NCBI GenBank assembly: GCA_031271905.1
Contig: JAISUT010000011.1
Location: 1-46,004 of the forward strand
Reading direction: 5' to 3'
Source: Acidobacteriota bacterium
GTDB taxonomy: Bacteria; Acidobacteriota; UBA6911
DNA: 46,004 bases
The notes under the pieces were generated by a model, which was given only the letters and a program-made list of their open reading frames with translations, was not told the origin of the DNA and ran no database searches. A program made the translations under genes and the position numbers. Below are positions 5,712 to 19,724 of the stretch, piece after piece. How positions within the stretch are numbered: the stretch's first letter is position 1; each line of letters opens with the position of its first letter.

Positions 5712-6941
5712 TCAGGGCATGTCGGCATACAGGCCGGGTTCGTTGCGGCAGAACAACAAAAGGCTTTCATAAAAACGCCGGTAGCCTAAGGGCGCAAAGC
5801 CCTCGCCGTCGCCCGACGCCTTCCCCAGGCACCAGGAGTGCGTCTGGCCGTCTTTTTCCTGCACGACCAGTTTTCGCAACGCCCGCATCGACACGAGCTC
5901 GGCGTCCACGCTGTAGGACGCCGGCGTGAGGCGGACTTTCGCCAGCTTGCCCACATAAAAGCTCTTGCCGTCGATCATGAGGTGTTTTCCCGAAAAAGAG
6001 ATCTTTTCGGGAACGGACCGCAACTTTACATAGATGGCCAGGTACATCCCCATGGGGCCCAGGAATATCAGTGGGCTGCACAGGAGCGGTATTATCAGGG
6101 CGGCAGCCATCCCCATGGACATCTCCGCCCAGTTGAAACCCTTCAAGGTGTCGAAACGCGCTATGAAAAACCCCACGGCGAGCGCCACCGCAAGAACCGC
6201 GCACGTGGCGATCTTGGGGAGCAATTTCGCCTTTCCCCATTTCATCACGCCGGCCTTGTCCACGATAAAGGTTGATTTCCCAAAGTCCACTTCCGGCGCC
6301 GTGGACGCCTCGCCCCGCCCCCGTCCAAGGTCGCCGTCATCCAGAGATGAACCATACCGCCAGCCAGCGTCCATCGCCTTCAGCCCGACACCTGCCATCG
6401 TCGGCGCGGCGAGGTTGACGCCCTCGACGGAGTCGCCTGCCGATGCCGCAAAACCCTCGCGTTTCCTTCGCTGGGCGTCATGGATGGCACCTAACAACCG
6501 GTCGCTGTCCCAACCGTGAAAACCGTACAGGTACAGGCGATGGGTTTTCACACCCCTCGGCGCACCCCGCATCCCCGATGCGTCAAAATCGATGCTCCCG
6601 CAGCGCTCGGTCAAGACCAAAAGGCGTTCCGACCACCGCGAGAGCGAAAAACTCCATTGATCCAACGGGAGGCGCAAGTATTCCCTCCCCCGGCGCGTGA
6701 AAACCACATCGGTGGACGTGACGCGGACACAGATGTCACAGATCCAGTAGGTGAGGACGGCCAGCAGCAACCAGATGACAAGGTTCGCGAAGAAATAATC
6801 GCGGACTGAAAACGCATATTGGAACTTTAGGGGGATGTATCCGCCGGCAAAAAACGACGCCTCAACGATGAGGCCCAGCATCAAAACACAGATCGAAACC
6901 CTCCGCACCACCAATGGATGAGAATGAAACTCCTGTTCCAT
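5712..6941 (-). CDS. Multi-pass membrane protein, unknown function
   Basis: 409 aa from the ATG at 6941 (MEQEFHSHPL), chosen because GGGGAGG lies just before it; longer in-frame starts lack a ribosome site. Predicted membrane segments lie near residues 13-35, 48-72, 241-262 and two within 274-306. The stretch 75-150 ('VTSTDVVFTRRGREYLRLPL') and the segment after 310 each look like small beta-rich cytoplasmic domains, perhaps bacterial PH-like. A low-complexity Gly/Asp/Arg linker spans about 195-220. No family is recognised and no neighbour suggests a role. Confidence 0.65.
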   Translation of the reverse strand: MEQEFHSHPLVVRRVSICVLMLGLIVEASFFAGGYIPLKFQYAFSVRDYFFANLVIWLLLAVLTYWICDICVRVTSTDVVFTRRGREYLRLPLDQWSFSLSRWSERLLVLTERCGSIDFDASGMRGAPRGVKTHRLYLYGFHGWDSDRLLGAIHDAQRRKREGFAASAGDSVEGVNLAAPTMAGVGLKAMDAGWRYGSSLDDGDLGRGRGEASTAPEVDFGKSTFIVDKAGVMKWGKAKLLPKIATCAVLAVALAVGFFIARFDTLKGFNWAEMSMGMAAALIIPLLCSPLIFLGPMGMYLAIYVKLRSVPEKISFSGKHLMIDGKSFYVGKLAKVRLTPASYSVDAELVSMRALRKLVVQEKDGQTHSWCLGKASGDGEGFAPLGYRRFYESLLLFCRNEPGLYADMP

Positions 6942-7127
6942 GAAGCCTCCCCGGATCGTCCCGAATCTTGCTGTCGCGAAACTTGCGGCAACTATCCATA
7001 TCGTCGCGCATGCGGTTTCACGATAGGGAATCGATAACAATTAACGGCGGGGCGCCGGCGGCTTTCAGGACGAAACGGGGTGAGAGGCGGACGCCCGCTT
7101 ATACGGTGCGGAACGGCCGGCCGGAGG

Positions 7128-8984
7128 TCACTTCTCCAAGACGACCGACATGCGGCAGCGCTCGCAGTCGAACTCCAGCCTGTAGACGTGCAGGTTGTCG
7201 CGCAAACGCAACGGTGCGGGGATGCGCCGCGCGCCGCCGCCGCCTTCCCCGCCCTCCCGCAAACAGGCGTCGAGCTGGTGGCGCAGGCAGTATTTCGTCC
7301 GCATCACCTCCCTGCCCCGCGCGACGCCCGCCGCCGCCTCGGCGGGGAAAGACTCCAGCGCAGGCTCGACGACCTGCGCGCCGTGGCGCTCGTAGAACGC
7401 CCGGGCGAGGCGGTTCAGGACGTTGGCGCGGAAATCCACCTGCTTTTCGGGGTAGGGGACGTCGTTGGGGACGACCGGCGCGGTGGGGCGGGGGCGGTTG
7501 GCTTCGCGGACTTTCGCGAGTTCCGCCAAGGAGTCCCTGCGCATCCGGTTCAGAAAGCCGACGGGGAGGAAGCCGACCCGCCCGGAGACCTCCGTCCGCC
7601 CGATGCGGAACGCCGTGCCCCCCGCCGCCGCGAGCCGCCTCTCGACCTGCGCGAGCGCCCGCCCGGGGTCGCGCGGCGCCACGTAGGGCGCGTCGAAGGA
7701 CAGCTCCGCCCGGTTGCCGTCCTCGTCCGTCGCCGTCAGCCGCGCCACGTCGCCCTCATGCGCGAACGCCATCGCCGCATCGACGCGGCGGCGCGCGGAG
7801 TCCCCTTGGAGCAGCCTGTCGAACGCGGCGTCGTGGTTCCTGTGGAGGGGCACCCCTTGGGCGAGCCCCCGCATGGAATTGGGGAACGCCTTCCCGTCCG
7901 GATCGACGCGCTCGACCCGGAAGCCGGACAGCCCCCCGCCGCCGGTGAAGAAGCAGAGCCCGTCCCCGTTGTGCAACCGCTCCCCGTCGAGCTGGAAGAA
8001 CCCCCGCCCCACGCGCGCCACCGTCCCGACGGGCTTGCCCACGGACTTTTGCGTGTCGATGGAACCGGCCTTGTCGCGCGCGCCCGAGATGAAATAGCGC
8101 GTGAAGCCCCGGTTGAAGCTCCGCGCGGGGTCGGGCGTGAAAGAAAATTCGCTGCGCCCCGAGCTGGCGCGGCGGTATCCGGGGCGGGCGGCGATGAAGG
8201 CGTCCAGCGCCTGCCGCCAGGCGGCGGTGACGTTCTTGACGTAACGGGCGTCCTTGTAGCGCCCCTCGATCTTGAACGAGGTGACGCCCGCCTCGACCAA
8301 CGCCCCGAGGTCGCCCATAAGGTCGAGGTCTTTCAAAGAGAGCAGGAACTTGTCCTGCTCGACGCGCCTCCCCACGCCGTCGGTCAGCGTGTACCGCGAG
8401 CGGCACGGCTGGGCGCAGACGCCCCGGTTGCCGCTGCGTCCGGCGACGACCTGGCTCATGTAGCATTGGCCGCTGTAGGACACGCAGAGCGCGCCGTGGA
8501 CGAACACCTCCAGCTCGATCTTCGGCGCCGCCCGCCGGATGGCGGCGATCTCCGCGAGCGAGAGCTCGCGCGCCAGGATCGCGCGGCGTACCCCCACCGC
8601 CTCGAGGAAGCGGACCTTCTCCGGCGTGTCGTTGTGCGCCTGCGTGCTGGCGATCAGGGGGATGGGCGGCAGGTCCAGCTCCAAGAGCCCCCGGTCTTGG
8701 ATGATCAGCCCGTCCGCCCCCAGGTCGTAGACCGACCGGACGATCCCGCGGGCTTCGGCGACCTCCCCGTCGGTCAGGATGGTGTTGAGCGCGACATAGA
8801 CCTTGGCGTAGAACAGATGGGCGCGGCGCACCAGCCGCTCCAAGTCCCCGAGCGCCACCCCCGCCCCCGCGCGGGCGCTGAACTTGGGAGCGCCGATGTA
8901 CACGGCGTCCGCCCCATGCTCCACGGCGGCGACGCCGATGTCCGCATCCCCCGCCGGCGCCAACAGTTCCAACGACGTCCCCAT
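7128..8984 (-). CDS. rlhA: 23S rRNA C2501 hydroxylase RlhA (U32 peptidase family)
   Basis: 618 aa from the ATG at 8984 (MGTSLELLAPAGDADIGVAA). A longer in-frame extension would run across the divergent cyclophilin gene and is rejected. The protein aligns along its whole length with E. coli RlhA (YdcP): 'HGADAVYIGAPKFSARAG', 'LIIQDRGLLELDLPPIPL', the Fe-S cysteine region 'GALCVSYSGQCYMSQ' and 'NRGVCAQPCRSRYTL', 'SFKIEGRYKDARYVKNVTA', and a C-terminal Cys motif 'RLEFDCERCRMSVV'. RlhA hydroxylates a cytidine of 23S rRNA. The length (E. coli about 650) and both Cys clusters are normal. Confidence 0.88.
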   Translation of the reverse strand: MGTSLELLAPAGDADIGVAAVEHGADAVYIGAPKFSARAGAGVALGDLERLVRRAHLFYAKVYVALNTILTDGEVAEARGIVRSVYDLGADGLIIQDRGLLELDLPPIPLIASTQAHNDTPEKVRFLEAVGVRRAILARELSLAEIAAIRRAAPKIELEVFVHGALCVSYSGQCYMSQVVAGRSGNRGVCAQPCRSRYTLTDGVGRRVEQDKFLLSLKDLDLMGDLGALVEAGVTSFKIEGRYKDARYVKNVTAAWRQALDAFIAARPGYRRASSGRSEFSFTPDPARSFNRGFTRYFISGARDKAGSIDTQKSVGKPVGTVARVGRGFFQLDGERLHNGDGLCFFTGGGGLSGFRVERVDPDGKAFPNSMRGLAQGVPLHRNHDAAFDRLLQGDSARRRVDAAMAFAHEGDVARLTATDEDGNRAELSFDAPYVAPRDPGRALAQVERRLAAAGGTAFRIGRTEVSGRVGFLPVGFLNRMRRDSLAELAKVREANRPRPTAPVVPNDVPYPEKQVDFRANVLNRLARAFYERHGAQVVEPALESFPAEAAAGVARGREVMRTKYCLRHQLDACLREGGEGGGGARRIPAPLRLRDNLHVYRLEFDCERCRMSVVLEK

Positions 8985-9933: not shown

Positions 9934-9962
9934 TTGACAAGTATTGTGAATGAGTACACAAT
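9934..9962 (+). promoter_or_regulatory. rex promoter with embedded Rex operator
   Basis: A -35 TTGACA (9934-9939), a 17-bp spacer and a -10 CACAAT (9957-9962). Lying over the spacer and -10 is TTGTGAATGAGTACACAA (9944-9961). It matches the 18-bp Rex consensus TTGTGAAnnnnTTCACAA in both five-base arms and at the exact spacing. The bound repressor would block polymerase, giving NADH-responsive autoregulation. A leader of roughly 135 nt follows, with a hairpin (GGCGAGG / CCTCGCC) at 10017-10036. Confidence 0.8.
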
Positions 9963-10102: not shown

Positions 10103-10801
10103 ATGAGGGGCGCGCAGAAACAATCGGGGACGGTGCAGTTCGCCGGCAAGCGCATCCCGCTCCAGACCGTCGAGCGCCTGTCCACCTACCGCCGGGTGCT
10201 GGAGGATCTGCACGGCCAGGGGATCCAGTACGTCTATTCGCACCAACTGGCGGAATACGTCGATGTCACCTCCGCGCAGCTCCGGCGCGACCTGGCGTCT
10301 TTCGGCTCGTTCGGCAACATCTCGCGCGGCTACAACGTCGGGCAGCTCATCAACACCCTGTCGGAGCTGCTCGGCACCGTGACGGTGCAGCCGGTGGCGC
10401 TGGTCGGCGCGGGCAACCTGGGGCGCACGCTCCTGTCCTATGGCGGCTTCGTCGAACGCGGCTTCGCGCTCGACCTGGTGTTCGACAACGACCCGTCGAA
10501 GATCGGCCGCGTCATCGCCGGGCGGCGTTGCCTAGACATCCGGGATGCCGCGACCGCCTTGCGCGACCGCCAGATCGGCATCGCCATCCTCGCCTGCCAG
10601 CCACAAGGGCTGCAAACCATCGTGAACAGCTTCGCCGAAGCCGGGGTGCGCGCGTTCCTCTGCTTCGTCCCCGCCATCCTCAACGCCCCGCCGGGGACGT
10701 TCATCGAGATGGAGGACATCTCCGCCAAGTTGGAGAAGTTGTCGTTTTTGGGAAAAAACAGGGTCAATCCCCGGCGGGAGTTGAAAGCGAGCGGGTTTTG
10801 A
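10103..10801 (+). CDS. rex: Redox-sensing transcriptional repressor Rex
   Basis: 232 aa with a strong GGGGAGGAAA ribosome site. An N-terminal winged helix ('RLSTYRRVLEDLHGQGIQYV', 'SAQLRRDLASFGSFG') is followed by a Rossmann NAD(H)-binding domain ('VALVGAGNLGRTLLSYGGF', 'VFDNDPSKIGRVIAG'), then the C-terminal swapped helix. Rex represses fermentative and hydrogenase genes when NADH/NAD+ is low and releases DNA when NADH rises. It has an operator over its own promoter and a second site before the hydrogenase operon that follows. The N-terminus is about 15 residues longer than typical. Confidence 0.95.
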   Translation: MRGAQKQSGTVQFAGKRIPLQTVERLSTYRRVLEDLHGQGIQYVYSHQLAEYVDVTSAQLRRDLASFGSFGNISRGYNVGQLINTLSELLGTVTVQPVALVGAGNLGRTLLSYGGFVERGFALDLVFDNDPSKIGRVIAGRRCLDIRDAATALRDRQIGIAILACQPQGLQTIVNSFAEAGVRAFLCFVPAILNAPPGTFIEMEDISAKLEKLSFLGKNRVNPRRELKASGF

Positions 10802-10910: not shown

Positions 10911-11303
10911 ATGTCCAAGAAGATCCTGACCATCGACGACGACGTCGACCTGACCGATTCCATCAAAGCCTGGTTCGAGGCGCGCGGGTACGCGGTGCGC
11001 GCGGCGCACAGCGGCGCCGAGGGGAAGAAAGCCATACGGCAGGAGCGGCCCGACGCCATCATCCTCGACGTCATGATGGACACCGACGCGGACGGTTTCA
11101 ACCTGGCGTACGAGCTGAAGGGCGACGCCGCCACCCGGGACATCCCCATCGTCCTCCTGTCGGGATTCACCGACCATCTCGCGGACAAGGCGCCGTCATT
11201 TGAATTCGTGATGGGGCGGGACTGGCCCGCGACCGAATACCTCAAGAAGCCCGCATCGTTGCAAAGCATCGGCGAGGCGGTGGAGCGGGTGCTCGGGAGC
11301 TAG
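10911..11303 (+). CDS. Stand-alone response regulator receiver (first gene of the hydrogenase operon)
   Basis: 130 aa, start with AAGGAGAG. It is a single REC domain with the acidic pocket D9-D10-D11, phosphoacceptor D53 in 'IILDVMMDTDADGF', the Ser of 'VLLSGF' and Lys of 'EYLKKPAS'. No output domain follows. An insertion between beta4 and beta5 ('TDHLADKAPSFEFVMGRDWP') is shared in position with the receiver at 17801, suggesting duplicated paralogues. It heads the operon, 90 bp before hydC. A CheY- or Spo0F-like phosphotransfer role is the simplest inference; the partner is probably one of the two kinases in this operon. Confidence 0.88.
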   Translation: MSKKILTIDDDVDLTDSIKAWFEARGYAVRAAHSGAEGKKAIRQERPDAIILDVMMDTDADGFNLAYELKGDAATRDIPIVLLSGFTDHLADKAPSFEFVMGRDWPATEYLKKPASLQSIGEAVERVLGS

Positions 11304-11393: not shown

Positions 11394-11876
11394 GTGAAAA
11401 CCATCGAGGAGATCATCGCCGAATTCGTCGCCGCGCCCGACCGCGACCGGCGCGACCGGGACCAGCCCTCGCCCTCCGCCATCATCCCGCTCCTGCAGGC
11501 GACGCAGAAGGAGCGCGGGTATGTGCCGGAAGAGGCGATCCGGGGCATCTCGCGCGCATTGCGGGTGCCGCGCAGCACCGTCTACGGCGTCGCCACCTTC
11601 TACAACCAGTTCCGGCTCACGCCTTTGGGCGAGCATGTGGTCGAGATCTGCCGAGGCACCGCCTGCCATGTGAAGGGGAGCGGCAAGCTGTGCGACCACC
11701 TGCGCCGCAAGCTCAAGCTCCAGAAGGACGGCAACTCGCGCGACGGCAAGTTCACGCTGCTGACCCCCGCGTGCCTCGGCGCCTGCTCCATCGCCTCGGT
11801 CGTCCGCGTCGATGGCGAGTTCCACGGCGGCATGGACGTGGCGAAGCTGGACGCCCTGCTCGACCAGTTGAAGTGA
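11394..11876 (+). CDS. hydC: [FeFe] hydrogenase subunit HydC/HndA (NuoE-like)
   Basis: 160 aa from GTG at 11394 with AAAGG upstream. It is a thioredoxin-like [2Fe-2S] subunit of the NuoE family: 'ILPLLQATQKERGYVPEEAI', 'GVATFYNQFRLTPLGEH', and cluster ligands in 'VEICRGTACHVKGS' and 'TPACLGACSIASVV', the usual C-x4-C and C-x3-C arrangement. In HydABC/Hnd hydrogenases this small subunit sits with the NADH-oxidising subunit. The gene order HydC-HydB-HydA matches other bifurcating hydrogenase operons. Confidence 0.93.
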   Translation: MKTIEEIIAEFVAAPDRDRRDRDQPSPSAIIPLLQATQKERGYVPEEAIRGISRALRVPRSTVYGVATFYNQFRLTPLGEHVVEICRGTACHVKGSGKLCDHLRRKLKLQKDGNSRDGKFTLLTPACLGACSIASVVRVDGEFHGGMDVAKLDALLDQLK

Positions 11877-11910
11877 CCCGCCGCGCGGGCGTCCGACTTT
11901 AGAGGTGACC

Positions 11911-13923
11911 ATGACCGACACCGTGCTTTTAAACCCCTGCTGCCCCGCCTGCCGCCACCGGCCTGCGGAGCCGTGCGTACACTCCGTCGAATGCGTCGAG
12001 AAAGGCCCACTCTGCCACGACGACGACGCCTGCCGCGAACTGCGCCGAATCCGGCTTCTCCAGGCGCGGCGCGGGGGCGAAGGGACCTTGATCTTCCTCG
12101 GCCTAGGCACCTGCGGCCTGGCCAACGGCGCCGCCGACGTGCGCAAGCGCATCGAGGCGTTCCTCGCGCAGAACCGCGTCGCGGCGACCGTCATCGACGT
12201 GGGGTGCATCGGCTACTGCCAGAAGGAGGTCATCGTGGACGTCGCGCCGTCCGGCGGGCCGCGCATCGCCTACGCCGGCGTCACGCCGGAGAACATCGAC
12301 GGGCTGCTCGCCGACGTGCTGTGCCGCGGGAGGGCAGGCCATCCGCTGGCGCTCGGCTGGCACGCCGACCCGGACGCTGCCCCGTCCGTCGCCCCCGACG
12401 GCGTCCCCGCGCTCCACACGATCCCCTTCTTCGCCCGCCAGCAGAAGGTGGTCTTGGAGAACTGCGGCGTCATCGACCCGGTGTCCCTCGACGCCGCCTT
12501 GGCGCGCGGGGCGTTCCGGGGCCTTTCGCGCGCCCTCTCCCTGATGACCCCCGCCGAGGTCTGCGACACCGTGCTCGCCTCCGGGCTGAAGGGGCGCGGG
12601 GGCGGAGGCTTCCCCACCGGGCGGAAATGGCAAGTGGCGCACGGGCAGCCGAGCGCGGAGAAGTACGTCGTCTGCAACGCCGACGAGGGCGACCCGGGCG
12701 CGTTCATGGACCGGGCGGTCTTGGAGGGCGACCCCTACCGCGTCTTGGAGGGGTTGGCGATAGCCGCCTACGCCATCGGCGCGCGCCGGGGCTACATCTA
12801 CTGCCGCGCGGAGTATCCGCTGGCGATCGCGAGGCTGGAGGCGGCCATCGCGCGCATGCGCGAGACGGGCCTCTTGGGCGACAACATCCTCGACAGCCAG
12901 TTCGCCTTCGACGTGAAGGTCAAGCCGGGGGCGGGTGCCTTCGTCTGCGGCGAGGAGACCGCCATCATCGCCAGCATCGAGGGGCGGCGCGGCATGCCGC
13001 GCCCCCGCCCCCCCTACCCCGCCGAGAAGGGGCTGTACGGCAAGCCGACCGTCCTGAACAACGTGGAGACCCTCGCCAACGTCCCCGCCATCGTCGCCCG
13101 GGGCGCGGAGTGGTTCGCCTCCATCGGCAAGGGGGACGCCGGCACGAAGGTCTTCGCCCTCTCCGGCGCGGTGCGCAACACGGGCCTGGTCGAAGTCCCC
13201 ATCGGCATGTCGCTGCGGGAGCTGGTGGAAGGCGTCGGCGGCGGCGTGGCGGCGGGGCACCGCCTCAAGGCGGTGCAGATCGGCGGCCCGTCGGGCGGCT
13301 GCCTGCCCGCCGACCAACTGGACGTGCCAGTGGACTACAGGGCGCTCCAAGAGCGGGGCGCGATCATGGGCTCGGGGGGGTTGGTGGTCATGGACGAGCG
13401 CTCCTGCATGGTGGACGTCGCCAAATACTTCATGGAGTTCGTCCGCTCCGAGTCGTGCGGCAAATGCGCACCCTGCCGCGAAGGGACGACGCGCCTCTAC
13501 GAGATACTCGCGGCGCTGTGCGAGAAGCCGGTCGGCGACGAAGGCAACCGCCTGACGCGCTTCCGCGGCCTGCTCGCAGCCGAGGAGTTGGCGGAGACCG
13601 TCCGCGAGGCGTCGCTGTGCGGCCTGGGGCAGACGGCGGCGAACCCCGTGCTGTCCACCCTGCGCTATTTCCGCGACGAGTACGAGGCGCACCTGCACGA
13701 GCGCCGTTGCCCGGCGGGCGCATGCCAGGGGCTGCGCGTGTTCGCCATCGACAACGCCCTGTGCATCGGCTGCACCATGTGCCGGAAGGCCTGCCCGCAA
13801 GACGCCGTCATGGGCGAGCGCAAGCAGGCGCACTACATCATCGAGGACCGCTGCATCGGCTGCGGCGCCTGCGTCACCGCCTGCCCCAAGGAGGCGATCG
13901 GCGTCGCGCCTTGGAGGCCGTGA
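11911..13923 (+). CDS. hydB: [FeFe] hydrogenase NAD(H)-binding subunit HydB/HndC (NuoF-like)
   Basis: 670 aa from ATG 11911 (GAGGTG upstream; the GTG at 11905 is an alternative). Order: a Cys-rich N-terminal extension (residues 1-45, seven Cys), a thioredoxin-like [2Fe-2S] region ('GLGTCGLANGA', 'VGCIGYCQKEV'), then the NuoF core with the FMN/NADH site ('GLKGRGGGGFPTGRKW', 'CNADEGDPGAFMDRAVLEG'), SLBB domain, the N3-type [4Fe-4S] motif 'ESCGKCAPCREGTTRL', and a C-terminal two-cluster ferredoxin ('CIGCTMCRKACP', 'CIGCGACVTACP'). It oxidises or reduces NAD(H) for the hydrogenase and, in bifurcating homologues, houses the flavin branch point. HndB and HndC functions are fused, as in Thermotoga HydB. 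Confidence 0.93.
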   Translation: MTDTVLLNPCCPACRHRPAEPCVHSVECVEKGPLCHDDDACRELRRIRLLQARRGGEGTLIFLGLGTCGLANGAADVRKRIEAFLAQNRVAATVIDVGCIGYCQKEVIVDVAPSGGPRIAYAGVTPENIDGLLADVLCRGRAGHPLALGWHADPDAAPSVAPDGVPALHTIPFFARQQKVVLENCGVIDPVSLDAALARGAFRGLSRALSLMTPAEVCDTVLASGLKGRGGGGFPTGRKWQVAHGQPSAEKYVVCNADEGDPGAFMDRAVLEGDPYRVLEGLAIAAYAIGARRGYIYCRAEYPLAIARLEAAIARMRETGLLGDNILDSQFAFDVKVKPGAGAFVCGEETAIIASIEGRRGMPRPRPPYPAEKGLYGKPTVLNNVETLANVPAIVARGAEWFASIGKGDAGTKVFALSGAVRNTGLVEVPIGMSLRELVEGVGGGVAAGHRLKAVQIGGPSGGCLPADQLDVPVDYRALQERGAIMGSGGLVVMDERSCMVDVAKYFMEFVRSESCGKCAPCREGTTRLYEILAALCEKPVGDEGNRLTRFRGLLAAEELAETVREASLCGLGQTAANPVLSTLRYFRDEYEAHLHERRCPAGACQGLRVFAIDNALCIGCTMCRKACPQDAVMGERKQAHYIIEDRCIGCGACVTACPKEAIGVAPWRP

Positions 13924-13978
13924 CCGGGACAAACCGCCGCTTGTCGGCGCGAAGATGGGATTACGGAGGGAATGCCAG

Positions 13979-15685
13979 ATGGAGATCACGGTGAACGGCA
14001 AGCCGGTGGAGTGCGACAAGGATGACACCGTGCTAGACGCGGCGTCCCGCGCGGGCGTCCACATCCCGCACCTGTGCGCCCTGGACGTCGCCCCGGCGCC
14101 GCACGCCTCTTGCCGCGTCTGCCTGGTCGAGGTCGAGGGCGAGGCGCGCCTGCAGACCAGTTGCACCATGAAGGTGCGCGAGGGGTTGCGCGTCCGCACC
14201 CACTCGCCCAAGGTGCTGCGCATCAGACGCAACATCGTCGAGCTGCTCCTGGCGGGGCATCCCGACGACTGCCTCTATTGCGCGCGCGCGGACGACTGCG
14301 AGCTGTCCCGCCTGGCCGCGCTGCTGGACGTCCGGGAGCGGCGCTACGCGGGGAGGGTGAAAGACCAGCCCATCGACGTCTCCTCGGTCGCCATCGTCCG
14401 CGACCCGTCCAAGTGCATCCTCTGCGGCCGTTGCGTGACCGTGTGCCAAACCGAGCAGGGGGTGGGGGCGATAGACTTCGCCGGACGCGGCTTCGACACC
14501 TCGGTCCGCCCCGGCGGCGACGCGGGGCTGGACGTCTCCGACTGCGTATTCTGCGGGCAGTGCGTGCGCGTCTGCCCGACCGGGGCGCTCGGCGAGAGGA
14601 GCGCCGTCGCCGAGGTCTCCGAGGCGCTCGGCAAGGCGGCGTCGGGGAGGCTCGATGCCGTGGCGCAGATCGCCCCGGCGGTCCCCGCGACCCTGGCGGC
14701 GGAGCTGGGACTGGGCAACCCGATGGCCGCGCTGGAGCTGGTGACGGGCGCGCTCCGGCAGATCGGCTTCTCCGCCGTCTACGACACGTCCTTCGCCGCC
14801 GACCTGACCGTCATGGAGGAGGCCCACGAGCTCCTCGGACGCCTCGGCGGCGGCGGCCCGCTGCCGATGTTCACCAGTTGCTCCCCCGCCTGGGTGCGCT
14901 TCGTGGAACTGCACCGGCCGGAGTTCGTCCCGCACCTCTCGACCTGCAAGTCGCCGCAGCAGATGGCGGCGGCGCTCATCAAGGAGCGGGCGGCGCGCGA
15001 GGGCAGGGACGTCTACTCGGTCGCCGTCATGCCCTGCACGGCCAAGAAGCAAGAGGCCTTCGAGGTCGGCGACCTGGACGCGGTCCTGACCACGCGCGAG
15101 CTGCTGCGCCTCTTGAAGAACTTCGGCGTCGAGCCGGGGAACGACGCGAAGCTCCGCTCACGGCCCGACGCCCCCTTCGGCGAGGCCAGCGGCGCGGGAC
15201 GGCTCTTCGGCGGCAGCGGCGGCGTGATGGAGGCGGCGTTGCGCACGGCGGCGCACATGGCGGGCGCGGAGACGCCGCCGCGCGCGACGGCGAGCGCCCC
15301 CTTGCGCAGCGGCGAGCGCATCCGCACCTTCACCGCCCCGGTCGGCGGCAGGGAGCTGCGCTGCGCCGTCGCCAGCGGCCTAGGCGCGGCCAAGTCGCTC
15401 CTGGACCAGCTCGCGGCGAAGAAGGTCGACTTGGACTTCGTGGAGGTCATGAGCTGCCCCGGCGGTTGCATCGGCGGGGGCGGGCAACCGCGACGCCGGC
15501 GCGACCGCAGCGGCCATGACGAGATGCTGAAGGCGCGGCGCATCCGCATCCATGACGCCGACAAGAAGGCGCCTCTGCACGCCGCGCACGAGAACCCGGA
15601 GGTGGCGCGGCTTTACGAGGAATGGCTGGGCGCGCCCGGCGGCGGGGAGAGCCACCGCCTGCTGCACCGGGGTTACAACGCATAG
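13979..15685 (+). CDS. hydA: [FeFe] hydrogenase catalytic subunit HydA/HndD (group A)
   Basis: 568 aa from ATG 13979, with GGAGG about nine bases before it; the ATG at 13955 is rejected for lack of a site. Domains: [2Fe-2S] ferredoxin (C33, C45, C48, C62); His-ligated [4Fe-4S] (H94, C98, C101, C107); two [4Fe-4S] clusters (C146-C156, C189-C199); then the H-cluster domain. L1 is TSCSPAW (C301), L2 MPCTAKKQE (C353), L3 EVMSCPGGCIGGGGQP (C493, C497), so all four H-cluster cysteines are present. S302 replaces the proton-relay Cys of clostridial CpI, a variant I recall in other NAD-linked HndD/HydA enzymes. A small-subunit-like tail (EVARLYEEWLG) follows. No maturases HydEFG are in the window. Confidence 0.95.
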   Translation: MEITVNGKPVECDKDDTVLDAASRAGVHIPHLCALDVAPAPHASCRVCLVEVEGEARLQTSCTMKVREGLRVRTHSPKVLRIRRNIVELLLAGHPDDCLYCARADDCELSRLAALLDVRERRYAGRVKDQPIDVSSVAIVRDPSKCILCGRCVTVCQTEQGVGAIDFAGRGFDTSVRPGGDAGLDVSDCVFCGQCVRVCPTGALGERSAVAEVSEALGKAASGRLDAVAQIAPAVPATLAAELGLGNPMAALELVTGALRQIGFSAVYDTSFAADLTVMEEAHELLGRLGGGGPLPMFTSCSPAWVRFVELHRPEFVPHLSTCKSPQQMAAALIKERAAREGRDVYSVAVMPCTAKKQEAFEVGDLDAVLTTRELLRLLKNFGVEPGNDAKLRSRPDAPFGEASGAGRLFGGSGGVMEAALRTAAHMAGAETPPRATASAPLRSGERIRTFTAPVGGRELRCAVASGLGAAKSLLDQLAAKKVDLDFVEVMSCPGGCIGGGGQPRRRRDRSGHDEMLKARRIRIHDADKKAPLHAAHENPEVARLYEEWLGAPGGGESHRLLHRGYNA

Positions 15686-15755: not shown

Positions 15756-17768
15756 ATGGCGGAGACGTTCGCCGCGATAGAGACGATCAAGCAGAACTGC
15801 CGGCGGTGCTACACGTGCGTCCGCTCCTGCCCGGTAAAGGCGATCAAGATCGAGAACGGCCAGGCCAGCGTCGTGCCGGAGCGTTGCATCGCCTGCGGCC
15901 GATGCACGACCGTCTGCTCGCAAAACGCGAAGACCTACGCCTCGGGGGTGGAGCTGACGCTCTCCATCCTCCAAGGGGGCGCGCCCGCGGTCGCCCTGCT
16001 CGCCCCCTCCTACGTCGCGGAGTTCGACGGCGTGGAGCCGGGGCGGGTGGTGGCGGCGCTGCGGGCGGTCGGATTCAAATACGTCGTGGAGGTGGCGCGC
16101 GGCGCGGACCTGGTCTCCGCCGAGTACGACAAGCTGCTGCAGGAGCATCCCGACGGCTCCTGGATAGCCACGGCGTGCCCCGCCATCGTCGAGCGCGTCC
16201 GCAAATACCACCCGTCGCTGACCGGCAGGCTCGCCCCCATCGTCTCGCCGATGGTCGCGGCGGCGGTCGAGGCGCGGCGCATCTACGGCGACGGCGTCCG
16301 CTCCGTGTTCATCGGCCCCTGCATCGCCAAGAAACTCGAAGTGCGCGACCCATTGCTGCCGCGCGTGGTGGACGAGGCGCTCACCTTCACCGAGTTGCGG
16401 CGCATCGTCGCCGGCGCCGGCGTCGACTTGGGGCTGCTCGAACCCTCCGAGCCGGACCGCCCCTTCGCGGGCATCGGGCGTTCGTTCCCGCTGGCGGGGG
16501 GGTTGCTCATCACGGCGGGGCTGGAGTCCGACCCGCTCGAGACCCGCTTCGTCGTCGCCACGGGCCGGGGGGAGACCGACGAGGTGCTGGAGGACATGGA
16601 GTCGGGGAGGATCCGCCCGCAACTGGTGGAGGCGCTGATGTGCCACGGCTGCCACGCCGGCCCCGGCATGTCCCGGGCCGCGTCCTCGCTTCGGATGCGC
16701 GCCGACATCTGCGCCTACGCGCAACAGGCGCGCGGGCGGCGCCCCGAGGAGGCGGCCGTCGAGACCGTGCGCGCCCTGGGGCGGGGCTACGCCGTCGAGG
16801 ACCACCGCCTCAAGGAGCCGGCGGAGGAGGACATCCGCGACATCCTGGCGCACACCAACAAGTTCTCGGCGGACGACGAGCTGAACTGCGGCGCCTGCGG
16901 CTACCCGACCTGCCGCGCGAAGGCGGCGGCGGTGTTCAACGGCCTCGCCGAGGAGGCGATGTGCCTCCCGTTCTTGATCGACCAGGCGGAGAGGGTTTGC
17001 AACGAGCTGCACGTGCCATGGCGCGACATGCGCGAAATCCACCGCCAACTGGTCAGCACCGAGAAGCTGGCGTCGCTCGGACAGCTCGCCGCCGGCATCG
17101 CGCACGAGCTGAACAACCCGCTGGGGACCATCCTGCTGTACTCCGGGCTCATCGAGCGCAAGCTGGGCAAGGAGTCGAAGGTGTCGGGCGACATCGACCT
17201 CGTGCAGAAGGAGACGCAACGTTGCAAACGCATCGTCTCGGGGCTGCTCGACTTCGCGCGGCAGAACCGCGTCCGCTTCGTGCGCACCCGCATGGGCGAG
17301 TATGTCGCGAAGGTGCTGGCGGACTCCTTCAACCGGCGGGAGCTGGAGGGGCGCAACGTCCGGTTGCGCTTCGACGGGGGCGGGGCGGACGTCGAGGCGG
17401 ACATCGACCGGGACCAGATGACGCAGGTGCTGGTGAACCTCGTCCAGAACGCCATCGACGCCTTGGGGGAGGACGGGGGCGAGATCGCGGTGTCGGCCGG
17501 GCTCTCCGAGGGGGGCGACCGCGTGCGCATCTCGGTCGAAGACGACGGCTGCGGCATCCCGGACGAGGATCACGACCGGGTGTTCCAACCCTTCTTCACC
17601 ACCAAGAACATCGGTCGCGGCACGGGCTTGGGGCTGGCGATAGCCTACGGCATCGTCAAGCTCCACCAGGGGACCATCTGGTTCGAGTCCAAGCCGGGCG
17701 AGGGGACGACGTTCTACATCGAGGCGCCTTTGCAACAGGCGCGTCCGATGCAGTCGGCGGGCGGTTAA
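15756..17768 (+). CDS. H-cluster sensor histidine kinase (HydS-like hydrogenase fused to HisKA/HATPase)
   Basis: 670 aa from ATG 15756 (AAGGAGGAG). An N-terminal two-cluster ferredoxin (C15, C18, C21, C25; C44, C47, C50, C54) is followed by an [FeFe]-hydrogenase-like domain with modified H-cluster motifs: TACPAI (C141), GPCIAKK (C189) and LMCHGCHAGPG (C296, C299). Next come a PF04060-type Fe-S motif (C378, C381, C386, C403) and a cytosolic histidine kinase (AAGIAHELNNPLG, H450; N-box NLVQNAIDAL; DDGCGIP; GRGTGLGLAI). There is no PAS domain and no membrane segment. This architecture belongs with group C sensory hydrogenases, proposed to sense H2 or redox state. Co-transcription with HydCBA fits feedback sensing. 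Confidence 0.9.
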   Translation: MAETFAAIETIKQNCRRCYTCVRSCPVKAIKIENGQASVVPERCIACGRCTTVCSQNAKTYASGVELTLSILQGGAPAVALLAPSYVAEFDGVEPGRVVAALRAVGFKYVVEVARGADLVSAEYDKLLQEHPDGSWIATACPAIVERVRKYHPSLTGRLAPIVSPMVAAAVEARRIYGDGVRSVFIGPCIAKKLEVRDPLLPRVVDEALTFTELRRIVAGAGVDLGLLEPSEPDRPFAGIGRSFPLAGGLLITAGLESDPLETRFVVATGRGETDEVLEDMESGRIRPQLVEALMCHGCHAGPGMSRAASSLRMRADICAYAQQARGRRPEEAAVETVRALGRGYAVEDHRLKEPAEEDIRDILAHTNKFSADDELNCGACGYPTCRAKAAAVFNGLAEEAMCLPFLIDQAERVCNELHVPWRDMREIHRQLVSTEKLASLGQLAAGIAHELNNPLGTILLYSGLIERKLGKESKVSGDIDLVQKETQRCKRIVSGLLDFARQNRVRFVRTRMGEYVAKVLADSFNRRELEGRNVRLRFDGGGADVEADIDRDQMTQVLVNLVQNAIDALGEDGGEIAVSAGLSEGGDRVRISVEDDGCGIPDEDHDRVFQPFFTTKNIGRGTGLGLAIAYGIVKLHQGTIWFESKPGEGTTFYIEAPLQQARPMQSAGG

Positions 17769-17800: not shown

Positions 17801-18217
17801 ATGGGAGTGACGGATGCGAAGAAACTGCTGTTCATCGACGACGACCAGGACTTCCTGGAGGCGCAGGAGGCCTTCTTCGGCGCGCGCGGCTTCGTGGTGC
17901 TGACCGCCGGGGGGACTGACGAGGCGCTCCGGCTGCTGGAGTCCGAGACGCCGGACATGATCTTCATCGACCTGATGATGGAGCATTTCGACTCGGGTTT
18001 CACGCTGGCGCACCGCCTCCGCCGCGAGGCGCGGTTCCAAGGGACGCCGCTGGTCATGCTCTCCGGGGTGGCCGCCGAGACGGGCAAGGACTTCTCGCGC
18101 GACAAGGAGGGGTTGCGCTCATGGTCGCAACTGGACGACTTCGTGGACAAGCCCGCGAGCGCGCAACGCCTTTTGAAGATCGTGGAGCGCAGGTTGGCGG
18201 CGCCGGGACGCGGCTAA
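17801..18217 (+). CDS. Stand-alone response regulator receiver
   Basis: 138 aa, single REC domain: acidic pocket D13-D14-D15, phosphoacceptor D57 in 'IFIDLMMEHFDSGF', the Ser of 'VMLSGV' and Lys of 'FVDKPAS'. No output domain. It shares with the receiver at 10911 the 'MM...GF' context and an insertion before the last strand. It lies 32 bp after the H-cluster kinase gene and is its likely phosphorylation target. Confidence 0.9.
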   Translation: MGVTDAKKLLFIDDDQDFLEAQEAFFGARGFVVLTAGGTDEALRLLESETPDMIFIDLMMEHFDSGFTLAHRLRREARFQGTPLVMLSGVAAETGKDFSRDKEGLRSWSQLDDFVDKPASAQRLLKIVERRLAAPGRG

Positions 18218-18233: not shown

Positions 18234-19724
18234 ATGGCTGCAAGCATCCTAGTGGTGGACGACGAACCCGGCATCCGCACCGGAGTGCGCGAGATCCTCG
18301 CCCTGGAGGGGTACGACGTGGAGGCCGCCGACTGCGGCCGCGCAGCGCTCGACCTGATCGACGGCGGCAACGCCTACGACGTGTTCCTGATCGACTACCG
18401 GCTGCCGGACATCGACGGGCTCACGCTCCTGCAGTCGATCCAGCGGAAGGCGCCGGACGCCATGACCTGCATGATCACCGCCTACGCCAACATCGAGACG
18501 GCGGTCTTCGCCACGCGGCAAGGGGTGGACGTCTTCCTGCCCAAGCCCTTCACGCCGGACGACCTGGTGGGCACGGTGGAGAACCTCCTCGGCTACAAGA
18601 AGCTCCGCGACGAGGCGTCCGCGTTGCGGGCGGCGCACGAGGCGAGCCTGCTGGAGCTGGCGTCGGAGAAGAGCCAGACCCATTCGCTGGTCTCCAGCCT
18701 GCGCGACGGCGTGCTGGTGGCGAACCGCCAGGGCGAGATCGCGCTGGCGAACCGCGCCATGGAGGAGCTGCTGGGCGCCGAGGCGGACAGCCTCCTGGGG
18801 CGGCAGGCGTCCGTGGCGCTCGCGGACGGCGTGCTCGCGCCCGCCCTGGCGTCGCTCGCCCCGGACAACCCCGCGCCCGGGGTGTTCGAGGTCGAGGTTG
18901 ACGCCGCGTCGGGCAGGCAGGCGGGGGATGCGGAACCCCGACGGCTCTTCATAAAGGTCAACGGCTTCTACGACGACAAGGGCGCAAGGCTGGGGAGCAT
19001 CCTCACCGCCGTGGACATCTCGGCGGTGAGGCGCATGGCGATGGAGAAGGCGCGTTTCACGCGGACGCTGGTCCACGAGCTGCGCGCGCCGCTCGGCGCG
19101 CTGAAGTCGATCATCGAGGTGATGCAGGATCGCAGCCTGGGCGACTCGCTCGAACCCTACGCCAAGTCGCTGGCGCGCGCCAACGAGCGGATAGACGGCC
19201 TGGGCGAACTCATCTCCGACCTGTTGTCTCTGTCGAGCATCGAGCACAAGGGGACGGACCAGACCCCCGCCGCGCCCTTGGACGTGGCGCCCGCCATCCG
19301 GGAGACGGTGGATCTCTGGAAGGATCGCGCGGCGGCGGTCCCGGTCGCGCTTGAAGTCGATTTGCAGGAGGGGCTGCCCCCTTGCGCCATCGCCGACGAC
19401 GACCTGCGCACCATCCTGACCAACCTGGTGGGCAACGCCGTCAAGTACAACCGCGCGGGCGGAAAGGTCGCCGTCAGCGCCCGGCGCACCCCCGAGGGGA
19501 TCGCCCTCGCCGTGCGCGACACCGGCATCGGCATCGCGGCGGAGAACGTCGCGCGCCTCGGAGAGGAGTTCTTCCGGGAGAAGAAGCCGGAGACCAAGCG
19601 CATCGAGGGGAACGGGCTGGGGCTGGCGATCGTGAAGCGGCTGGTCGGCCACGCCGGCGGCCGCCTGGAGATCTCCAGCCGCGCGGGCGAGGGGAGCGAG
19701 TTCCGCGTCATCCTCCCCTGCTGA
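18234..19724 (+). CDS. Hybrid receiver-PAS-histidine kinase
   Basis: 496 aa, start with GGAGGGGGAG. Order: REC (residues 1-125, phosphoacceptor D54 in 'FLIDYRLPDIDGL', Lys of 'FLPKPF'), a coiled linker (125-150), PAS (about 150-265, 'SLRDGVLVANRQGEIALANR'), HisKA (H281 in 'TLVHELRAPLGALKS') and HATPase ('NLVGNAVKYN', 'DTGIGIAAENVARL', 'EGNGLGLAIVKRL'). It is soluble. An N-terminal receiver on a kinase means its activity can be set by phosphate from another kinase, plausibly the H-cluster kinase two genes upstream. It is the last gene of the operon and ends 15 bp from the convergent VWA gene. Its target regulator is not identifiable here. Confidence 0.92.
   Translation: MAASILVVDDEPGIRTGVREILALEGYDVEAADCGRAALDLIDGGNAYDVFLIDYRLPDIDGLTLLQSIQRKAPDAMTCMITAYANIETAVFATRQGVDVFLPKPFTPDDLVGTVENLLGYKKLRDEASALRAAHEASLLELASEKSQTHSLVSSLRDGVLVANRQGEIALANRAMEELLGAEADSLLGRQASVALADGVLAPALASLAPDNPAPGVFEVEVDAASGRQAGDAEPRRLFIKVNGFYDDKGARLGSILTAVDISAVRRMAMEKARFTRTLVHELRAPLGALKSIIEVMQDRSLGDSLEPYAKSLARANERIDGLGELISDLLSLSSIEHKGTDQTPAAPLDVAPAIRETVDLWKDRAAAVPVALEVDLQEGLPPCAIADDDLRTILTNLVGNAVKYNRAGGKVAVSARRTPEGIALAVRDTGIGIAAENVARLGEEFFREKKPETKRIEGNGLGLAIVKRLVGHAGGRLEISSRAGEGSEFRVILPC

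Follow-up and report, generated by a model that had tools for sequence, protein, structure and literature searches.

How a sensory [FeFe] hydrogenase transmits its signal is an unsolved question, and the two characterized sensors of this kind, TmHydS and TamHydS, lack a kinase of their own that could be assayed. The family described here makes the question testable. Within the window, by which we mean the whole 46,004-nucleotide stretch of Acidobacteriota DNA that was analyzed, the gene at positions 15756-17768 of the forward strand most likely encodes, judging from its sequence, a hydrogen-sensing kinase of the cytoplasm that joins a hydrogenase-like domain, an Fe-S domain, a long helix, and a histidine kinase in one chain. 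Since sensor and kinase of the window protein and its relatives lie in a single soluble polypeptide, the response to H2 should be readable as autophosphorylation. Our preferred reading, which we regard as likely, is that the product is a soluble, dimeric, group C H2-sensing histidine kinase that probably helps to control the HydABC-type hydrogenase of its operon, with the signal passing through the helix and on to receiver domains.

Domain organization of the probable sensor kinase

The open reading frame starts with an ATG at 15756, just 5' of which lies a purine-rich stretch resembling a ribosome-binding site, and its stop codon ends at 17768; the 670-residue product was modeled by AlphaFold2 with a mean pLDDT of 88. 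All of its features are encoded on the forward strand. Two ferredoxin-type [4Fe-4S] sites of the form CxxCxxCxxxC (residues 12-58, positions 15789-15929, Pfam Fer4 families), with all eight Cys kept in 90 of 90 relatives, precede the H-cluster domain Fe_hyd_lg_C (residues 78-303, positions 15987-16664, Pfam E value of 9.7e-41). These are followed by a PF04060 Fe-S domain with the motif Cx2Cx4Cx16C (residues 376-405, positions 16881-16970, Pfam; Cys378, Cys381, Cys386, and Cys403), a 46-residue linker from Cys403 to His450 (positions 16965-17102) that heptad phase, Leu pattern, and model predict to be a signalling helix, a HisKA dimerization and phospho-acceptor domain (residues 441-503, positions 17076-17264, Pfam), and a HATPase_c kinase domain (residues 551-660, positions 17406-17735, Pfam E value of 1.9e-31). 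The H-box HELNNP (residues 450-455, with His450 at 17103-17105) and the N, G1, F, and G2 boxes were all located, as in a HisKA-type histidine kinase. Each of the 16 candidate cluster Cys is invariant in the 90 relatives, which is far above chance. No part of the sequence is hydrophobic enough to be an obvious membrane helix (the largest 19-residue hydrophobicity mean is 1.48), so the protein is probably soluble. A further residue, Cys490 in the second DHp helix, is kept in 85 of 90 relatives, perhaps as a normal feature of such kinases, perhaps as a redox switch.

The candidate H-cluster ligands, assigned by sequence, are Cys141 in L1 (TACPAI, 16170-16187; an invariant residue), Cys189 in L2 (GPCIAKK, 16314-16334), and Cys296 and Cys299 in L3 (MCHGCHAGPG, 16638-16667), the last two with C-x2-C spacing. 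Ala140 aligns with Cys299 of CpI, and the L1 proton-relay Cys is therefore absent; the CpI chain scoring highest against the window protein is the C299A variant. Gly187 occupies the position of CpI Met353. Replacement at both positions is found in most sensory enzymes, about 43% of which have Ala at the Cys299 position and 51% Gly at the Met353 position, the most frequent residues at these sites, and TmHydS carries the same two residues (PMC10055695). The original prediction, made from the letters alone, had described one Cys each in L1 and L2, two in L3 with C-x2-C spacing, no L1 proton-relay residue, and an H-cluster sensor linked to a histidine kinase with no PAS domain; the motifs as located, the spacing read directly in L3, the Pfam domains, and the lack of any Pfam match to PAS in the 670 residues bear out this description. 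Structure prediction, which it had proposed as a check, gave a confidently modeled H-domain (pLDDT mostly 90 or more), and VIA-align matched the model to solved [FeFe] hydrogenases with Z scores of about 40 (up to 41.7, over residues 4-402), an agreement at the level of the fold that comes from a match list covering residues 3-350 or so.

The C-terminal Fe-S domain and the predicted signalling helix

What, then, lies between sensor and kinase in place of PAS? The same prediction had put the PF04060 motif where many HydS-like proteins have PAS and had treated it as special to this protein, and neither statement stood. The literature describes Cx2Cx4Cx16C as the motif of the C-terminal cluster in group C and group D sensors (PMC8163306), it occurs throughout the clade, and a PAS-bearing HydS carries it as well, with PAS after it (in L210, Fe-S at 378-407 and PAS from 419). 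Because PAS follows the same Fe-S motif in PAS-bearing sensors, sequence comparison puts the PF04060 domain of the window protein in its usual place, with the PAS simply missing. The published motif and the PAS position in L210 thus rule out PF04060 as a PAS substitute. A PAS overlooked by the sequence search is also ruled out, as the 46 residues from Cys403 to His450 leave no room for one and the model has only helix there. The aligned kinase-fused relatives agree, with no Pfam PAS in 71 of 71.

The linker has a regular length. In every one of the 147 PAS-free kinase fusions whose sequence is unmasked, 46 (n = 127), 39 (n = 18), or 32 (n = 2) residues lie between the phospho-His and the final Fe-S Cys, and all three lengths equal 4 modulo 7; L137, with a linker of 53 residues that includes masked letters, was excluded from the count. 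At least four length changes are required on the tree, and the chance of a shared phase would be about (1/7)^4 = 0.0004 if phases were random. The contrast sets have no single heptad phase (linkers of 155-175 residues in PAS-kinases, and of 54-61 and 73 in sigma-54 fusions). Since the sample favors near relatives, we take the shared phase as moderate evidence for a helix. Large hydrophobic residues, mostly Leu, stand at -46, -39, -32, -25, and -18 from the His in nearly all non-redundant 46-residue linkers, and the hydrophobic periodicity is significant by permutation (p = 0.0006), with a best period of 3.35 rather than 3.5. The AlphaFold2 models, which are of monomers, give relative L063 an unbroken 66-residue helix that starts one residue beyond the last Fe-S Cys and includes the phospho-His (pLDDT mostly 85-96); the linker of the window protein is modeled at low confidence (pLDDT 50-69 over about 411-460) as helices 404-417 and 422-470 with a break at 418-421 near Pro421. 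One heptad phase and a heptad hydrophobic pattern are what a coiled-coil signalling helix, a described element (PMC1592074), should have, with reservations for the Pro421 of the window lineage and the period of 3.35. These sequence and model features suggest that the Fe-S domain drives the kinase via a rigid signalling helix. Heptad-phased linkers are common in other sensor kinases, whose response depends on the phase (e.g., YF1, PMC6798134), and the phase therefore supports a helix, not H2 as the signal. The rule points to linker mutations in which single residues are compared with whole heptads.

From these elements, we favor a mechanism in which H2 would react at the H-cluster, of which domain and ligands are drawn from sequence and model and the chemistry is presumed. 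A redox or structural change in the H-domain and the ferredoxin-type domain would then alter the packing of the PF04060 domain, which appears to end in the start of the signalling helix; this helix is predicted to continue, with its heptad phase fixed, into the DHp helix with His450. Movement of the coiled coil would switch between kinase and phosphatase activity, by analogy with other kinases such as YF1 (PMC6798134), and phosphoryl groups would be handed on to the products of the next two genes, the stand-alone receiver and the receiver-PAS-kinase, as the conserved gene order suggests. Rex would provide a separate, NADH-dependent control of the cassette.

The alternative that survives best is the redox relay of the original prediction, in which oxidation of H2 would deliver an electron to the PF04060 [4Fe-4S] cluster, and kinase activity would depend on whether this cluster is reduced. 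In favor of it, all Cys of the cluster are invariant, and the signalling helix immediately follows the last of these ligands, Cys403. In TamHydS, the sole sensor in which this was tested, the H-cluster and one of the N-terminal clusters become reduced under H2, and the C-terminal [4Fe-4S] cluster does not under 1 atm of the gas at pH 6-8, yet the secondary structure changes; when the TamHydS cluster is in a [3Fe-4S] form, H2 does reduce it (PMC13104023). In that work, Asp residues adjacent to the C-terminal cluster's first and last Cys are named as a reason for its low potential (PMC13104023). TamHydS belongs to group D, another clade, and D-like rows in our alignment have Asp at the two positions in 13 of 14 and 10 of 14 cases. 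At these positions, the kinase-fused clade has Asn (133 of 148) and Met (148 of 148), represented in the window protein by Asn377 and Met402, so its cluster potential may be higher. With the blamed Asp pair mostly missing from the kinase-fused clade, the negative result in TamHydS may not transfer, and there is reason to think that what holds for group D need not hold here. A relay through the C-terminal cluster is thus possible, though we give it distinctly less credence than transmission of a structural change through the helix.

Relatives and the hydrogenase cassette

In public genomes, 570 stretches encoding relatives of the sensor kinase were detected by a scan, and the 80 loci that were kept span Bacteroidota, Hydrogenedentota, Planctomycetota, Ignavibacteriota, Thermodesulfobacteriota, Bacillota, KSB1, Melainabacteria, and others. 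PAS-free kinase fusions make up a large share of these loci; in Bacillota, the sensor module is mostly joined to other outputs. A quick maximum-likelihood tree of 159 rows (IQ-TREE, LG+G4) put the window protein with L009, from the same genus, and L094, from Syntrophobacterales, within the sensory clade, in a group whose rows are kinase fusions. Branch support for this placement is 94-100 and the separation from group A has support of 100; D-like rows form their own clade, where the D-like and B-like labels were assigned by features and the tree holds no characterized group B, C, or D sequences. The phylogeny that the original prediction had called for thus came out on its side, with the window protein in the sensory clade and apart from group A and the D-like rows. 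Membership in group A or group D is ruled out by the tree, and group D also by Gly187, Asn377, and Met402. The window protein has the two N-terminal [4Fe-4S] sites and the exact C-terminal Cx2Cx4Cx16C motif of group C HydS, invariant in its relatives, and its sequence features fit a kinase-fused group C [FeFe] hydrogenase. A strict M2f protein has a C-terminal PAS, which is lacking in the window protein and in 71 of 71 relatives, so the window protein is not strictly M2f.

Sensors of this general kind are already published, since PAS-less, kinase-fused group C proteins beside bifurcating hydrogenases are known as HydDB group C1 and as BfuT of sub-type V. HydDB defines C1 as sensory, 'histidine kinase-linked' (putative) [FeFe] hydrogenases (PMC5037454), and the window protein could fall under either C1 or C3; these subgroup names have no simple correspondence to the fused domains. 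BfuT of sub-type V from Hydrogenedentota is a group C3 protein that, like the window protein, combines a group C H-domain with a histidine kinase domain; it adjoins a group A3 bfuABC, and PAS occurs in another type (IV) (PMC11406978). Hydrogenedentota members with the same motifs as the window protein are among the relatives that we found, and sub-type V BfuT is about 45% identical to the window protein over the sensor part. In the parts of the BfuT account that were available (PMC11406978), we found no analysis of linker, L3, or Fe-S motifs and no biochemistry. We did not find the heptad rule, the clade-wide C-x2-C spacing, or the Asp difference described elsewhere, which, given incomplete coverage of the literature, is not proof of novelty. 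TmHydS and TamHydS were compared through published descriptions only. TmHydS (Thermotoga maritima, group C, M2f) shares the C-terminal Cx2Cx4Cx16C cluster with the window protein (PMC8163306) but carries PAS at its C-terminal end and lacks a fused kinase. TamHydS (Thermoanaerobacter mathranii, group D, M2e) resembles the window protein in its three accessory clusters, its lack of PAS, and its place beside a bifurcating hydrogenase, whereas its histidine kinase-like ATPase is the product of a separate neighboring gene (PMC8163306). The D-like proteins of our set differ from the window protein in forming their own clade, lacking a kinase, and having a C-x3-C L3 as well as Asp beside the C-terminal cluster. 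A hydrogenase-like H2 sensor also feeds a histidine kinase in the regulatory [NiFe] hydrogenase HoxBC with its kinase HoxJ. That system works like the window protein but is unrelated to it, with another metal center and fold, separate subunits, and a PAS-like domain in HoxJ. HoxJ is mentioned in PMC8163306.

The sensor gene lies in a run of genes on the forward strand separated by short gaps, in the order rex, receiver, hydC, hydB, hydA, sensor kinase, receiver, and receiver-PAS-kinase, and from this arrangement the cassette is probably one operon. Ahead of rex stand a putative Rex operator, the palindrome TTGTGAATGAGTACACAA (9944-9961, forward strand; one mismatch to TTGTGAAN4TTCACAA, with 0.01 expected by chance in the window), and, overlapping it, a putative sigma-70-like promoter (TTGACA-17-CACAAT, 9934-9962, forward strand; 10 of 12 consensus bases), both being consensus matches only; L094 has a similar but weaker Rex-like site in the same place, with three mismatches. 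The forward-strand genes that follow encode Rex, an NADH-responsive repressor (10103-10801; NCBIfam PRK05472.2-4 above the cut-off), a stand-alone receiver domain (10911-11303; Pfam), the NuoE-like HydC (11394-11876), the NuoF-like HydB with FMN/NADH and extra ferredoxin sites (11905-13923; both with Pfam and NCBIfam matches), and HydA, the catalytic [FeFe] hydrogenase subunit of group A type (13955-15685), whose true start may be the Met at 13979. The best NCBIfam match of HydA is to group A6 HydA at 614 bits, below the cut-off of 765, and the solved chains closest to it are those of bifurcating HydA1. Downstream of the sensor kinase are a second stand-alone receiver (17801-18217, forward strand), a probable phosphoryl acceptor judged by its translation and the conserved gene order, and a receiver-PAS-HisKA-HATPase protein (18234-19724, forward strand; Pfam), the probable second step by the same gene order. 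Among 81 loci, 75 could show the neighbors of the sensor; hydA was directly upstream in 65, a receiver was downstream in 59, and a receiver-kinase in 65, which indicates that the whole cassette is conserved and not the sensor gene alone. As a separate observation, L1 of the window HydA (14862-14900 region) reads TSCSPAW, with Ser by position at the CpI ligand Cys300; TSCSP is also present in the solved A. woodii HydA1, and how such enzymes hold the H-cluster deserves a look.

No DNA-binding response regulator is encoded in the cassette, where the partners are two single-domain receivers and another kinase. This composition would suit a sensor that acts on the activity or assembly of the hydrogenase, by contact with HydABC or by phosphorylation, and not on gene expression. 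An unlinked DNA-binding regulator would do as well, and, as cited in PMC8924675, deletion of Thermoanaerobacterium hfs, sensor-type gene included, lowered hyd and ech expression. We consider such direct control unlikely.

The L3 spacing and other H-cluster fusions

The C-x2-C spacing of L3 had also been put forward as special to the window protein, which the tree contradicts. Among its 159 rows, PAS-free kinase fusions have C-x2-C in 44 of 45 cases, and sigma-54 fusions (18 of 18) and PAS-kinase fusions (8 of 8) have it throughout, with C-x3-C in group A, D-like, MCP, and most PAS-only rows; three changes suffice to explain the distribution. By these alignments, the spacing is a mark of the clade and not a peculiarity of one protein. 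Neither L3 Cys varies in any of the 90 relatives and the whole clade shares the spacing, which rules out a broken H-cluster site as an explanation for it. We found no biochemically studied C-x2-C member in the literature. The PAS-free C-x2-C clade might even be a distinct kind of H2 sensor, with an H-cluster in an altered L3 loop and a C-terminal cluster that, lacking the Asp pair and placed right where the signalling helix starts, is reduced by H2 and switches the kinase without PAS. We hold this to be improbable; if true, it would amount to a direct, H2-driven switch from metal cluster to kinase.

Least likely of all, in our judgment, is a general redox sensor whose N-terminal clusters read ferredoxin or the cellular redox state and not H2, with the H-domain as a scaffold that perhaps lacks the [2Fe] subsite: we found no spectroscopic precedent for a C-x2-C L3 in the literature and some Bacteroidales paralogues persist despite having lost H-cluster Cys, but all four H-cluster Cys are invariant in the 90 relatives of the same type, HydG and HydF score above their cut-offs in the source genome so that maturases are present, and the gene follows hydA in most loci. 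Those Bacteroidales second sensors (L038:2-1174 and L044:2-1285, both minus strand, and minus-strand open reading frames of L050 and L040) are divergent from the hyd operon and have lost at least one H-cluster Cys; they are possibly sensors without a full H-cluster, and such losses imply that Cys can be lost when the site is not needed.

The H-cluster module is also joined to other outputs. In Bacillota (L079:5887-8226; L222:1759-3957 and L206:902-3583, both minus strand; and others), it is fused together with PF04060 to sigma-54 AAA+ and HTH domains, with or without PAS, and these proteins are, from their domains, apparently one-component H2-responsive transcription activators. In L215:1181-3586, and similarly in L221, the sensor module is fused to GGDEF and HD-GYP-like domains, a domain combination that suggests H2 control of cyclic di-GMP. 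We found no description in the literature of sigma-54 or GGDEF outputs joined to [FeFe] H-domains, which is weak evidence given the incomplete coverage. In L207:978-4241, two GAF domains and a histidine kinase come after the H-cluster module, and L041:1961-4165 and 6148-8127, from Hydrogenedentota, are two kinase-fused H-cluster sensors in one cassette with receiver and receiver-kinase genes between them. The source genome encodes seven H-domain proteins in all and seems, by sequence, to carry at least two further types of H2 sensor. H-cluster modules with MCP-like chemotaxis regions occur in L005:541-2517 (minus strand) and L006:1243-3204, both of the source genome, and in L167, with the region identified as Pfam MCPsignal in L167 and judged by sequence in L005 and L006. 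L019 encodes a large protein that combines receivers, an H-cluster module, and a hybrid histidine kinase, and L007 of the source genome groups with it on the tree.
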